Below are positions 13,962-26,635 of a DNA stretch of 26,635 nt, in pieces. The notes beneath the pieces are model-generated. The model did no database searches and was not told the origin of the DNA. It saw only the letters and a program-made list of their open reading frames with translations. Origin of the DNA: a virus; the IMG/VR virus record IMGVR_UViG_3300030329_003399, positions 1 to 26,635 of that record, one strand, 5' to 3'. A program made the translations under genes and the position numbers. The stretch's first letter is position 1. Each line of letters begins with the position of its first letter.

Positions 13962-14096
13962 ATGATTGATTATTTAGAAAAACAATTAGAACGTCTTATA
14001 GATTACACCAGTAGCGAAGGATTTTTTCGTGGCGTAATGATGTTCGCTCTATTCGTATTATTATTTAACGTAATACGGACCTGTTTTACAGGATGA
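13962..14096 (+). CDS. Single-pass membrane peptide, 44 aa
   Basis: A short frame read by hand: 44 aa starting MIDYLEKQLERLIDYTS, with one membrane segment at about residues 22-38 (RGVMMFALFVLLFNVI) and a short tail ending TCFTG. The start follows GGGAG at suitable spacing. The stop codon lies in the first arm of the structured element at 14091-14140, so termination and RNA folding are linked. It could act at the inner membrane, for example in superinfection exclusion or lysis timing; that is a guess. Confidence 0.6.
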   Translation: MIDYLEKQLERLIDYTSSEGFFRGVMMFALFVLLFNVIRTCFTG

Positions 14097-14183: not shown

Positions 14184-14275
14184 ATTATAACACACAAAAG
14201 ATTTAAACAATAGTAACGTACATATAAAAGATTTCTTATGACAAGAAAGAATAACAACCAACAATGGAGGAACGT

Positions 14276-16330
14276 ATGTCAGAAATGAAGAAGTTCCATT
14301 CAGCATTACATAAGCAAGGTTACTTATGTACAGAAACGTTTTCTGCGAATGTTTACTGTGCACTACGTAAGAAACCTATGTCTATTACAATGCTGATAGG
14401 ACAAGCTGGTACGGGCAAATCATTCCTACCTGAAACGCTTGGTGAAGTACTCGGATGTAACGTGTACGTAAAGCAAGCGTATCAAGGTATGGATTGGGAT
14501 GAGTTCGTACGTAAGCACGTACCTGATGAGAATACAAAGTCAGGTATTAAATCAATAGACGCTGAACTTCTACGTGCGGTTCAAGAATCAAAAGAGAAGA
14601 AAGTAATACTGTTACTTGATGAGTGGGATAAAACACGTATCAGTAGCGATTCTTACTTCCTTGATTTCTTGCAGACTGGACGTATAAGTGTAAGCGGTCA
14701 AAAGTATCAGGCTAATTTAGACAACCTGATAATTTTCTTTACGTCAAACAATGAGCGCGACATATCAGAACCGTTATTAAGACGTGTTATGGTGGTAGAA
14801 GTAGAACATCTACCTGTATCACTTGTTGCTAACGTACTTAAAGACAAGTACAAAGACAATCCTACTGCGATGTCTACGATAGAACCTACATTGAAACTAT
14901 ATGACGTTTCAATTAAGAGTAAGATGGATAAACCTGCTACTATACAGGAGTTAGGTGATCTTATTGATATGTGGGTAACGTACACTAATGAAGGTAAGAA
15001 ACCAGATTGGAATGAACTTGTAAAGCTAACTGTTACTAAGAATGAACGTAATCATATGTCTTTACAGAATGCAATTACTGAGAGTGTGGAAAAGAAGAAT
15101 GATAACAGTAAAAAAGTAGATACATCTATTGATGTAGACTACTTCAATGAACCAGTATCATTAGATGTTAATGGTGACGTACAGACAGGCTTTATGCCAC
15201 GTATGGTGGAGATGCGAAACTTTGATACTGATATTACTGATTATAAAGCAAGTGAAGGTGATGACATATTCGTAGAAATAAAACGTGACGATCAAGCATA
15301 TACTACTGCATTCATAGAGGCACGTGATGAAGATGTAAATATAGAAGTACCTTACTTCTTAGGATGGAATACTATCAAACCTGACTTAATACAACGTTCA
15401 AAACCATACAATCTGTCAGAACTTATACATGAATATAATAAGTTTTACCGTATGCGTAACTCAGACGGAGTTATTGTATTTATTGAACCGTTTGCAGATT
15501 CAGATGATGTACTTAATATGGTAGAAGTGTCTGACGGTAGTGTACGTAAGGGTATGGATGATGAGATTATATTCAGGATATACGATAAGAACATTGAGAT
15601 TAACGTACGATGGAAGAATGGTAAGGGATGTGAGTTTATAGTACCTACTAAAGCAATCGAACATATGTTTGATGTAGTAAGACGTAGTGGTTGGTACAGA
15701 AGTAGGGAACTGTATAGTTCCATAAGAAAGATAAGCCATAACGTTGTAGTTAATAGCAAATTAAGTAGTAATGACATTATAGAGTTACGCTTACTTGGAA
15801 GTACTAATAACTATCTTGACGTTGCTATTCAGGGTATTGAAAGACATAATGATGATGATCCTGATCATTTGAACGTTGTTAATAGTGGTGAAGCTACGAT
15901 AAAAGAAACTTCACGTACTACAACATACACTTTTAATTGGGGTACTATACGTTCCTGGCATAAGAAAGATAAACCTAACTACAAATATCATATTGTAGTT
16001 AAGAACGTTCCAAGTACGCCATCACACGGCTACAAGTTCTTATGTAATAAGCTACAACTTGCTAATTTATCTATTGTTTTGTTTGTAAGTATGGATAAAA
16101 ATCAGTTTGACAAGTGTGATAGGGATAAGTATCAAACTACTGGTTCTTCACGTATACTTATGAATATAGATGAAGGATGTAAAAGAGGTTATCATACGTA
16201 CGCACTGAATGCGTATGATAGAACCGTATTCATGCTGGAATCTAATAATCCTGATAAACTATCGGATATGTTTATATTTGCAGACCAGTTACGGGCAATA
16301 CGTGATGTTACTATGGAGGTAGTATGTTAA
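14276..16330 (+). CDS. AAA+ ATPase, MoxR/AAA_5-like, with long C-terminal extension
   Basis: A 684-aa protein. Residues 35-180 are a clear AAA+ module: Walker A GQAGTGKS (42-49), Walker B ILLLDEWDK (111-119), sensor-1 region FFTSNNERD (154-162) and Arg-finger candidates LLRRV (167-171). The shape fits the MoxR/CobS/AAA_5 group, which couple ATP use to remodelling of partners that carry VWA domains. The remaining 450 residues are beta-rich, acidic and unrecognised. I chose the ATG at 14276, after GGAGGAACGT, over an in-frame ATG at 14264 that overlaps the Shine-Dalgarno sequence. Its stop overlaps the start of the VWA gene, so the two are probably made together. Alternative reading: a CobS-like protein, but the C-terminus is much longer than CobS. 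Confidence 0.8.
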   Translation: MSEMKKFHSALHKQGYLCTETFSANVYCALRKKPMSITMLIGQAGTGKSFLPETLGEVLGCNVYVKQAYQGMDWDEFVRKHVPDENTKSGIKSIDAELLRAVQESKEKKVILLLDEWDKTRISSDSYFLDFLQTGRISVSGQKYQANLDNLIIFFTSNNERDISEPLLRRVMVVEVEHLPVSLVANVLKDKYKDNPTAMSTIEPTLKLYDVSIKSKMDKPATIQELGDLIDMWVTYTNEGKKPDWNELVKLTVTKNERNHMSLQNAITESVEKKNDNSKKVDTSIDVDYFNEPVSLDVNGDVQTGFMPRMVEMRNFDTDITDYKASEGDDIFVEIKRDDQAYTTAFIEARDEDVNIEVPYFLGWNTIKPDLIQRSKPYNLSELIHEYNKFYRMRNSDGVIVFIEPFADSDDVLNMVEVSDGSVRKGMDDEIIFRIYDKNIEINVRWKNGKGCEFIVPTKAIEHMFDVVRRSGWYRSRELYSSIRKISHNVVVNSKLSSNDIIELRLLGSTNNYLDVAIQGIERHNDDDPDHLNVVNSGEATIKETSRTTTYTFNWGTIRSWHKKDKPNYKYHIVVKNVPSTPSHGYKFLCNKLQLANLSIVLFVSMDKNQFDKCDRDKYQTTGSSRILMNIDEGCKRGYHTYALNAYDRTVFMLESNNPDKLSDMFIFADQLRAIRDVTMEVVC

Positions 16331-17292
16331 AGACTAAACCTTCATGGATGAATTGGAAAAATAAAGGCGGTACAAACGTTAGTACGGGTTCCTCCCGTGT
16401 TGATACGCAGAACGGTGAAGGGGCAGACGTAATGTCTGCCCCTGATCCTGAATTATTATTGAAAACGTTAGTAAGTAGTGATGGTTTTGATACAGATATT
16501 CAAAGAAATACAATACGTATACCAAATAGAAATGTTAATAATGCAATTAAAAACATGAGTAAAGAATCAATAAGCTATATTATTGGTGATACTAAACACT
16601 ATGCTGATTCATGGTATCTTGGTAGTGGTAGGTATAAGCAAAACTTACATAGTGTGGATAATAGTTTTGACTACGAATATTTACGTAATAGAAAACTATC
16701 ATCCACTTTGTCATTGTTATTTGGTAAGATTGCAGAAGAACGTATGGGCGATAGTACCGAAGGTTTAGACAAATGGGATATAGACAAGATAATGTTTAGA
16801 CGTATATCTAAAAAAGTTATAACTGATTGTAAATACGCAAGAGAAAAACAACGTCTTGTACTTATGCTCGATAGTAGTCCATCATGTAGCTCTATGGCTA
16901 ACGTTTATAGTCAGATAGCAACGGAGTCTGCAAACTTTGACGACTTAGAAATATATGACGCACCAAATGGCTTCGCACACAGTATATATAACCCGAGAGA
17001 AGGTAAATTTGTAAGGTTAAGTGATGAAGAGATTGAATATACCGTACTTTGGGGAGGATTTAATGGACGTACTATTATATATTTTGGAGACACGGATGCT
17101 GTACGTAGCATAAGATCATCTTGGAGTTATAATGATATTCACTGGTTTTATAGATCACCATACGAAGACCATGAATTAAAATCTCAGAAGTTAGATACTC
17201 AACGTATACGTAGGCAGTGGAGTGATAAAGTTACTGTATATATGTGTAATAATATATCTCAGTTAATGCAGGCGGTGAGGGATATGAGATGA
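16324..17292 (+). CDS. VWA-domain-like protein, partner of the AAA+ ATPase
   Basis: A 322-aa protein overlapping the AAA+ gene by seven bases. Residues 177-188 (RLVLMLDSSPSC) carry a MIDAS motif DxSxS (Asp183, Ser185, Ser187) after a hydrophobic strand, as in von Willebrand factor A domains. A second strand with acidic end, IIYFGDTDAV (251-260), is placed like the later metal-binding motif. The first 60 residues are low-complexity and probably disordered. AAA+ (MoxR, CobS, RavA, NorQ) and VWA (CobT, ViaA, NorD) proteins form known pairs, in which the VWA protein is an adaptor for the target. This supports a two-part remodelling machine. The target is unknown. Confidence 0.68.
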   Translation: MLKTKPSWMNWKNKGGTNVSTGSSRVDTQNGEGADVMSAPDPELLLKTLVSSDGFDTDIQRNTIRIPNRNVNNAIKNMSKESISYIIGDTKHYADSWYLGSGRYKQNLHSVDNSFDYEYLRNRKLSSTLSLLFGKIAEERMGDSTEGLDKWDIDKIMFRRISKKVITDCKYAREKQRLVLMLDSSPSCSSMANVYSQIATESANFDDLEIYDAPNGFAHSIYNPREGKFVRLSDEEIEYTVLWGGFNGRTIIYFGDTDAVRSIRSSWSYNDIHWFYRSPYEDHELKSQKLDTQRIRRQWSDKVTVYMCNNISQLMQAVRDMR

Positions 17293-17690
17293 GTAAGATA
17301 TACGGTGATGAGTTTAAGTATGAAATACGTAAACTTAAAAGACTTGATAAAAAGATTTTAGAATGTAAAGCACACGCAGAACGTATACGTTATGAGTGTG
17401 AAACAAATCCTGCACTTAATAACAGTTCAATAACAATTATAGAAGCTATAAGATCACTGTTAAATCTATCAAAGAAAGTAGTTATGCTTCAGGATACGTT
17501 AGAAGATTTTGATAAAACGTATGAAAGTATTGATAGCTGGGTTATAAAAAAACTTATGAAAAATGAAGTAGATAAATATGATTTTAAAAGAATATCTAAA
17601 CTACGTATCGGGGCTGAAAGATTAACTAATATGTACAGTGATACTTTAAAAAAGTTTGGTAAGAAACTAAGGGATCAACGTAATGAATAA
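17289..17690 (+). CDS. Hypothetical coiled-coil protein, 133 aa
   Basis: A 133-aa almost fully helical protein (YEIRKLKRLDKKILECK, then LLNLSKKVVMLQDTLEDFDK) with heptad-like Leu/Ile spacing and no catalytic motif. It starts inside the last codons of the VWA gene (ATGA overlap) and overlaps the next gene by eight bases, so it belongs to the same translation unit as the AAA+/VWA pair. It may be a third subunit or an adaptor of that pair; this is inferred from coupling only. Confidence 0.62.
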   Translation: MSKIYGDEFKYEIRKLKRLDKKILECKAHAERIRYECETNPALNNSSITIIEAIRSLLNLSKKVVMLQDTLEDFDKTYESIDSWVIKKLMKNEVDKYDFKRISKLRIGAERLTNMYSDTLKKFGKKLRDQRNE

Positions 17691-17877
17691 AAAAATAATA
17701 GAGTTAATAGAAGAACGTTTAGAAAAAGGAAAACGTCAATATGCAGATCAGTTAGACGTACATGATGGAAGAGATTGGTTAATTGAAGCACTTGAAGAAG
17801 TACTTGATTGCATGGTATATATAAGCGCAAAGATTTTAGAAATAAAAGAAACGGAGAAACGTAATGGAATTAAATAA
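17683..17877 (+). CDS. MazG-like helical fragment, 64 aa
   Basis: A 64-aa helical protein with RLEKGKRQYADQLDVHDGR followed by DWLIEALEEVLDCMVYIS. The EALEEVLD segment resembles the ExxE...ExxD metal-binding helix of all-alpha NTP pyrophosphohydrolases (MazG/dUTPase group), and the 'Y..QL.VHDGRDW..EALEE..D' pattern is seen in short phage proteins of that kind. Only one such helix is present, so it is about half a catalytic unit and might act as an oligomer or have lost activity. It uses the GGGATCAACGTA initiation module. Confidence 0.5.
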   Translation: MNKKIIELIEERLEKGKRQYADQLDVHDGRDWLIEALEEVLDCMVYISAKILEIKETEKRNGIK

Positions 17878-18128: not shown

Positions 18129-18455
18129 ATGGGTAAAGAATCAGAAGAAATGAGAAAGATGTCAGAATATTGGCATAACGTAGGAATGGAACAACATACA
18201 ACAAACTATGGTGAGGTAGTAGCCTGTGATTTTTGTAACGGAGGAGAAGAAAGTAGCGGAGGTGTACTAATAGGAAGTTACGCAGTATGTGGGGATTGCA
18301 GTGAGAAGAATGGTTACTACAACGAAACTTATGAGTACAAGAATGAGATAACAGAACACTTTAACACTGAGCAAACGTTCAGAGAGAACATACTTGAGTA
18401 CCGTAAAAAATCATACGGAACAAGAGATGCAATACAAACCATAGTGAGTTGGTAA
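18129..18455 (+). CDS. Small zinc-binding protein, 108 aa
   Basis: A 108-aa protein with two CxxC pairs: CDFC at residues 33-36 and CGDC at 54-57, separated by 17 residues in a Gly-rich loop, consistent with a zinc ribbon or treble-clef knuckle. The flanks are acidic and helical. It starts after AGAGGAACGTA. The next gene is also Cys-rich and begins one base after this stop, which suggests the two act together, perhaps binding nucleic acid or a host polymerase. No known family is recognised. Confidence 0.65.
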   Translation: MGKESEEMRKMSEYWHNVGMEQHTTNYGEVVACDFCNGGEESSGGVLIGSYAVCGDCSEKNGYYNETYEYKNEITEHFNTEQTFRENILEYRKKSYGTRDAIQTIVSW

Positions 18456-26182: not shown

Positions 26183-26350
26183 ATGGAAAAAATACATAAA
26201 ACATATAAAGAAGAAAACTTCATATTTGTCTTTTTCCTATTTTGGGACTATCCCAATTTCAATTTGGGAATTGGGATGGCACGATTTTACACATATAGAG
26301 AGTATAGGAACAATTATGAATACTCAAATCTAAAAAATGTTGATGCTTGA
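26183..26350 (+). CDS. Possible 55-aa protein overlapping the methyltransferase start
   Basis: A 55-codon frame (MEKIHKTYKEENFIFVFFLF, continuing to a Tyr/Asn-rich end) overlaps the first 14 bases of the methyltransferase gene. The ribosome-binding site is poor. It contains the inverted repeat at 26250-26277, which may be the true functional element. It might be an upstream coupled gene. Confidence 0.3.
   Translation: MEKIHKTYKEENFIFVFFLFWDYPNFNLGIGMARFYTYREYRNNYEYSNLKNVDA
26250..26277. promoter_or_regulatory. 9-bp inverted repeat before the methyltransferase
   Basis: ATCCCAATT (26250-26258) and AATTGGGAT (26269-26277) are exact reverse complements across 10 bases. Extra TTTGGGA copies lie on its left (26241-26247) and inside the loop. 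It ends 59 bases before the methyltransferase ATG and could be an operator; C5 methyltransferases often control their own promoters. Confidence 0.55.
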
Positions 26351-26635
26351 TCTATTTAGCGGAATCGGCGGATTCTCATTAGCCGCAAGTTGGGTATGGG
26401 GAGATGATCTTGAGATTGCGGGATTTTGTGAGATTGATAAGTATTGCGAAAAAGTACTTAATAAGAATTTTCCCGGAGTACCAGTATATAAAGACATTAC
26501 ACAATTAGATGGAACACAGTTTAAAAATATTGACCTTATCACCGGTGGTTTTCCATGTCAGGATATTTCGGTAGCGGGAAAAGGGAAAGGATTATTTAAT
26601 GAAGAAACTGGAGAAAAAACACGATCCGGTCTTTG
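26337..26635 (+). CDS. C5-cytosine DNA methyltransferase, N-terminal part (cut by right edge)
   Basis: The first 99 residues are visible. Motif I DLFSGIGGFSLA (residues 5-16) binds AdoMet, FCEIDKYCEKVL holds the acidic residue of motif II, and GGFPCQDIS (70-78) is motif IV with the catalytic Cys. The enzyme would methylate cytosine in a short DNA target to evade host restriction or to mark phage DNA. The target cannot be read from this part. Start ATG is 26337, with 26343 as an alternative, and the ribosome-binding site is weak. This part is slightly richer in GC and contains no ACGT, unlike the genes to its left, which suggests more recent gain. Confidence 0.93.
   Translation, partial: MLMLDLFSGIGGFSLAASWVWGDDLEIAGFCEIDKYCEKVLNKNFPGVPVYKDITQLDGTQFKNIDLITGGFPCQDISVAGKGKGLFNEETGEKTRSGL

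Follow-up and report, generated by a model that had tools for sequence, protein, structure and literature searches.

Pairs of an AAA+ ATPase and a VWA protein have, to our knowledge, been described mostly as machines for maturation and repair in cells, and viral roles are known for almost no case. NorQ-NorD, the AAA+/VWA system for nitric oxide reductase maturation, works through a finger of the VWA protein that enters the NorQ pore, a NorD C-terminus that holds the post-sensor-1 loop, and an ATP-driven rotation that stretches the linker to the N-terminal element, with the MIDAS thought to face the target (PMC13036017, PMC9976466). Among viruses, p618-p892 of ATV combines a MoxR-type AAA+ protein with a VWA protein that associates with it and stimulates its ATPase, and a chaperone role in tail development has been proposed (PMC4124505). 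Bacillus phage 0305phi8-36 encodes both a MoxR subunit and its proposed partner, orf66 and orf63 (PMC2147016). With these two examples, viral AAA+/VWA pairs as such have precedents.

Here we analyse a locus on an uncultured phage record in which an AAA+ gene is followed by a gene for a VWA-like partner (Table 1). We consider it probable, at about 0.6, that the products of the two genes make up an ATP-driven machine of the AAA+/VWA-partner kind, which has two parts and remodels proteins, similar to NorQD and CbbQO. The window, meaning the whole stretch of DNA that was analysed, comprises an entire IMG/VR record (26,635 bases); it lacks end repeats and is thus possibly a fragment. The three overlapping reading frames described in an earlier note on this DNA are present.

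Table 1. Features of the AAA+/VWA-like pair and the adjoining coiled-coil gene in the window. Residue numbers of the AAA protein count from the ATG at 14264 (688 aa in that numbering).
Feature	Position	Strand	Remarks
AAA+ ATPase gene	14276..16330	+	684 aa from ATG 14276; Pfam AAA_5 E=1.5e-9
Walker A GQAGTGKS, residues 46-53	14399..14422	+	G46, G49, G51, K52, S53 invariant, 14 homologues
Walker B LLLDEWDKT, residues 116-124	14609..14635	+	D119-T124 invariant, 14 homologues
Sensor-1 Asn162 and candidate arginine-finger pair R173-R174	14741..14785	+	invariant, 14 homologues
C-terminal part 1, residues 276-475	15089..15688	+	in all members; alignment of 14 homologues
C-terminal part 2, residues 476-688	15689..16327	+	absent in 460-aa member (79.6-kb contig)
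VWA-like partner gene, 322 aa	16324..17292	+	overlaps AAA gene by 7 nt; homologues in 19 contigs
N-terminal Trp motif PSWMNW, residues 6-11	16339..16356	+	Trp motif before linker in 14/14 homologues
Variable polar low-complexity linker, residues ~16-113	16369..16662	+	96-161 residues long across family
Pre-VWA motif GLDKWDIDKIMFR, residues 147-159	16762..16800	+	35 residues before MIDAS strand
MIDAS motif DSSPS, residues 183-187, then Cys188	16870..16884	+	D183, S185, S187, C188 invariant, 14 homologues
Second MIDAS strand TIIYFGDTD, residues 250-258	17071..17097	+	D256 and D258 invariant
C-terminal basic/hydrophobic tail AVRDMR, conserved	17272..17289	+	KKLK in most relatives
Coiled-coil gene, 133 aa	17289..17690	+	overlaps VWA-like gene by 4 nt; near clade only

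The AAA and VWA-like genes belong together, as judged by their gene order across contigs. Scanning IMG/VR with the VWA-like alignment alone retrieved 18 contigs, and an AAA homologue lies directly upstream of the VWA-like gene in every one (AAA-profile E <=1e-64). The ends of the two genes overlap by 4 to ~41 nt in 17 of these contigs and are separated by a 5-nt gap in the remaining one; taking the start that aligns with the one in L203 gives an overlap of 14 nt in L199-L202. The same gene order in 18 contigs whose homologues share 21-51% identity places the observation beyond chance, with an independent number nearer ten because L200-L202 nearly duplicate L199 and further contigs closely resemble one another. 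In a 79.6-kb contig the gene context differs, the neighbours of the pair being methyltransferase and sugar-transfer genes. A 19th contig (G158), found through its AAA gene, also has the pair. The earlier note had let its reading depend on the co-occurrence of the two genes; they are adjacent in 19/19 contigs, and the neighbourhood survey it proposed recovers a conserved order, AAA then VWA-like, in phage homologues. Profiles of downstream genes gave no link between clades that would point to a further gene common to all of them.

AAA genes that stand without a VWA-like gene are of two sorts: those of L001, L005 and L009, where the contig ends inside the AAA gene, and the doubtful or distant AAA genes of L183 (a fragment) and L186 (283 aa). 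The latter, on a 106-kb viral contig (3300010412_000002), encodes an AAA+ protein with an FFDEWDKT signature and no C-terminal region, and no VWA-like partner of this family was found on that contig. Matches of the search patterns in L167, L170, L173, L176, L178, L179, L181 and L182 are chance hits in unrelated proteins.

The proteins of the pair have no match in 50,697 named phage records, and tblastn searches of named phages with distant members likewise returned none for the VWA-like protein or the long AAA protein. Those with the short AAA protein gave only clamp loaders, Clp and the like. The single match in named phages, MT837659 (L004), is a bacterial Lon, carried by a record of bacterial appearance; this record is deposited in GenBank as 'Bacteriophage sp.' from human faeces, carries apparently only bacterial genes, among them Lon, a YihA/EngB-like GTPase and a malic-enzyme-like gene, and is probably not a phage. 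Searches for a host copy found no match in GTDB contigs with clade-specific patterns and none in 399 Pseudomonadota genomes, a sample without a positive control; these host-genome negatives are weak evidence of absence. What is new is this family, its C-terminal region, the strict pairing and the absence from the named phage records searched.

The AAA protein carries a well-conserved motor module. Its mechanical reading frame extends back to 14264; the start at 14276 used in the earlier note has a GGAGG at 14266-14270, 5 nt before the ATG, and gives the MSE beginning with which all relatives start. Judged by its motifs and profile matches, the module belongs beyond doubt to the AAA+ ATPase superfamily, with an AAA_5 score of 38.4 bits in the window against a cut-off of 22 bits and E=8.5e-12 for its best relative. 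The DEWDKT stretch of Walker B is a family signature, and a pattern search with it retrieved distant relatives. The position of R173-R174 suggests that this pair may serve as arginine finger.

The designation 'MoxR-type' given to the AAA protein by the earlier note is plausible, with NorQ as the best fold match speaking for it and the higher sequence scores of Lon and McrB against it. A PDB search with the AlphaFold2 model (pLDDT 38, from a 3-row alignment) placed NorQ from NorQD complexes first (E=3.8e-4) and CbbQ high, although the model is poor and in particular too poor to show the helix-2 insert. When the AAA module was compared by hhalign with single proteins, Lon scored 99 and 71, McrB 59 and ClpX 56, followed by NorQ (53), MoxR (46), CobS (33) and RavA (31), with RuvB ranking between NorQ and MoxR and YehL between MoxR and CobS. 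A match to the 'MadB' ATPase family in NCBIfam was sub-threshold. Because fold search and profile ranking disagree, we refer to the protein as an AAA+ ATPase of the 'NorQ/McrB/Lon side' and not as 'MoxR'.

The C-terminal region of the AAA protein is new and fast-evolving. The earlier note had described a 450-residue unrecognised domain; unrecognised it is, with no match in Pfam, PHROGs, NCBIfam, PDB or the AAA comparators, hhalign included, but it spans ~413 residues beyond the AAA module, of which only ~190 are common to all members. The profile searches that had been suggested for it thus matched no family, and its novelty holds together with that of the partner's N-terminus, no known relative having been found for either. 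Within part 1, P312, G402, K429, E434, I436 and R449 are invariant in 14 homologues, and part 2 evolves fast in those members that have it. In distant members the AAA module retains 40-42% identity compared with 14-21% for the C-terminal region. Rapid divergence next to a conserved motor suggests that this region faces a substrate or partner.

The partner protein combines MIDAS-like motifs with a sequence that is otherwise distant from described VWA families. Its conserved segment begins at residue 115, after the linker, and no variation is seen at D183, S185, S187, C188, D256 or D258 across 21-28% identity. The context of the MIDAS Asp D256 is FGD in the window and FTDGD or FTDFD in distant members, which read LLDTSGSC and IIIFTDGD and so show the textbook VWA forms (DTSGS, FTDG). 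No conserved MIDAS Thr is found in the loop before the D256 strand in the homologue alignment. The best Pfam match, VWA_CoxE over the MIDAS stretch, is not significant (0.013), hhalign of the family against VWA families gave probabilities of <=7%, and a sequence search in PDB gave no match. Compared by hhalign with CobT, CoxE, ViaA and YehP, the family aligned in the MIDAS stretch and nowhere else.

Structure prediction of the single proteins, as the earlier note had advised, was run and yielded poor models for both (pLDDT 38 and 42). In the model of the VWA-like protein (pLDDT 42, from a 5-row alignment) the elements follow the order beta-alpha-beta-beta-alpha-beta-alpha-beta-alpha-beta-alpha of a VWA domain at pLDDT 47-65. 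A BFVD search with this weak model gave as best match a phage 'VWFA domain containing protein' (E=1.1e-4), and a PDB fold search gave generic Rossmann folds only. DxSxS and the later-strand Asp speak for a VWA domain, while the MIDAS Thr is absent and no profile match is significant. We call the second protein VWA-like, a name suggested by its motifs, the element order of the low-confidence model and the BFVD match.

These results also bear on a different reading of the pair, in which the AAA protein would be a Lon/ClpX-like (HCLR-clade) unfoldase or disaggregase and its partner an adaptor whose DxSxS-like metal site sits on a different alpha/beta fold. The hhalign order, with Lon, McrB and ClpX above NorQ, MoxR, CobS and RavA, favours this reading, as does the restriction of PDB matches of the VWA-like model to generic Rossmann folds. 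We nevertheless regard it as unlikely, as the fold search puts NorQ first and CbbQ high, the best Pfam family is AAA_5, which we take to cover the NorQ/McrB/midasin side, the second Asp ends a later strand and takes the FTDGD form in some members, and neither a protease domain nor a ClpP-like partner is seen within the window.

A short segment in front of the VWA-like domain may correspond to the 'finger' with which VWA proteins that partner AAA+ motors enter the pore. The pattern G-x-x-x-(W/Y)-D-x-x-x-L-x-x-R occurs in 12/14 family members, 30/30 CobT and 5/12 CoxE sequences, is absent from ViaA and YehP, and appears in ~1% of shuffled sequences; it was chosen after the sequences had been seen and is thus a lead only. 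Its spacing to the MIDAS motif is 35 residues in the phage partner, 37 in CobT and 38 in some CoxE.

Among described systems, NorQ-NorD shares with the phage pair its two-protein AAA+/VWA make-up. An N-terminal element, a disordered linker, a pre-MIDAS segment and a conserved C-terminal end follow one another in the same order in NorD and the phage partner, and the tail of the latter may parallel the NorD C-terminus that holds NorQ (PMC13036017). The differences are substantial: the N-terminal position is taken by a domain in NorD and by a short Trp peptide in the phage partner, NorQ consists of the AAA+ module alone whereas the phage AAA protein has ~410 extra residues, the phage has no nitric oxide reductase, the MIDAS Thr is missing, and NorD and the phage partner show no significant sequence link. 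CobT and CoxE have the GxxxDxxxLxxR-like segment 35-38 residues before DxSxS, and CobS is matched locally by the phage AAA protein; there is, however, no overall profile match to CobT/CoxE and no cobalamin or CO-dehydrogenase gene near the phage pair. In Escherichia coli RavA-ViaA an AAA+ gene precedes a VWA gene with a 7-nt overlap, as in the window, but RavA gives the weakest of the AAA comparisons and ViaA lacks the pre-VWA motif. The two viral systems were compared by description only. ATV p618-p892 is likewise a viral AAA+/VWA pair, but of an archaeal bicaudavirus and linked to tail development; phage 0305phi8-36 likewise encodes a MoxR subunit together with a proposed partner, but in a 218-kb genome.

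The coiled-coil protein is a near-clade accessory and not part of the core. Homologues follow the VWA-like gene in 5/5 near-clade records (the window and four others; E ~1e-72 in relatives), a 63-aa ORF separates the two genes in one of these, and the gene is absent from all distant loci. With the gene confined to the near clade and once split off by an ORF, the three-gene machine of the earlier note is unsupported. The small gene that comes next (17683-17877) has relatives elsewhere in near-clade records: in G003, G005 and G007 they follow the resolvase gene.

The pair lies in a divergent plus-strand operon, in which small genes are followed by the AAA, VWA-like and coiled-coil frames and then by replication-type genes, namely a PDDEXK nuclease, a gene of a PHROG 'exonuclease' group, a DnaB-family helicase (Pfam 2.6e-47) and a RusA-like resolvase. 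The minus strand carries genes for the large and small terminase subunits, a P22-like portal and an SU10-like capsid, and terminase identity to the nearest named phages is only ~25%. The earlier note's placement in a phage early region agrees with this non-structural operon that also holds replication genes, and early expression may be read from gene position; nor is any chelatase or denitrification gene found near the pair in the window, again as the note had said.

This setting weighs on two further readings. A virion-assembly chaperone, like that proposed for ATV p618-p892 in tail development, has a viral precedent in a MoxR-type AAA+ protein whose VWA partner stimulates its ATPase (PMC4124505), yet it is improbable here, the pair sharing its strand and operon with DnaB, a PDDEXK nuclease and a recombination gene while packaging and structural genes occupy the opposite strand. 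The same operon could hint at a helicase loader or replisome remodeller for the phage DnaB-type helicase: no recognisable loader was found among the proteins scanned, and the pair lies ~6 kb upstream of the helicase gene in the same direction. It is not adjacent to that gene, however, its AAA module was not of DnaC type in any library search, and we know of no helicase loaders with VWA partners, making this reading very improbable.

Several other features of the window were observed. Just upstream of the AAA gene lies an unlisted 44-aa ORF (13962-14096) with a single likely membrane segment (MIDYLEKQLERLIDYTSSEGFFRGVMMFALFVLLFNVIRTCFTG); it matches a 102-aa ORF in the corresponding position of L001 (5111-5419), over the C-terminal part of the latter. 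The protein encoded at 18129-18455 has two CxxC pairs and weakly matches Lar-like restriction alleviation proteins (PHROG 599, E=0.0026); in near relatives it is joined to a second domain. Across positions 1-26635, CTAG is seen 0 times against ~56 expected from trinucleotides and GGCC once against ~20 expected, as if restriction sites were avoided. The start of a C5 DNA methyltransferase (26337-26635) is cut by the contig end; a 71% identical relative on contig 3300009413_000347 (L002) is located on the opposite strand, between the terminase genes, and this difference in place and strand indicates that the gene moves.

For the remodelling machine that we favour, we infer oligomer, contacts, mechanism and timing from the observed gene order, motifs and co-occurrence. 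The AAA protein would form the motor, probably hexameric, with the fast-evolving C-terminal region as an added docking or substrate domain. The VWA-like protein would be an adaptor tethered through its N-terminal Trp peptide and long flexible linker; its pre-VWA segment may enter the motor pore, and the metal site and C-terminal tail of the VWA-like domain would hold on to the target and the motor. Driven by ATP cycles, the ring would then twist or pull the adaptor and reshape the bound target, as proposed for NorQ-NorD. No neighbouring gene points to a particular target. The pair would be made early, together with the replication genes. A further-reaching version, which we put forward tentatively and hold to be possible but doubtful, is that of a phage-specific machine apart from all described MoxR/VWA subfamilies, with a new motor C-terminal domain and a peptide-tethered adaptor, used early to dismantle or refit a host complex of transcription, replication or defence.

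The pair is compact and conserved across several uncultured phage groups, and its conserved motifs make a NorQD-type mechanism testable outside metal insertion. Once found, its target would reveal either a novel means by which phages remodel host complexes or a chaperone step in their replication that is new.
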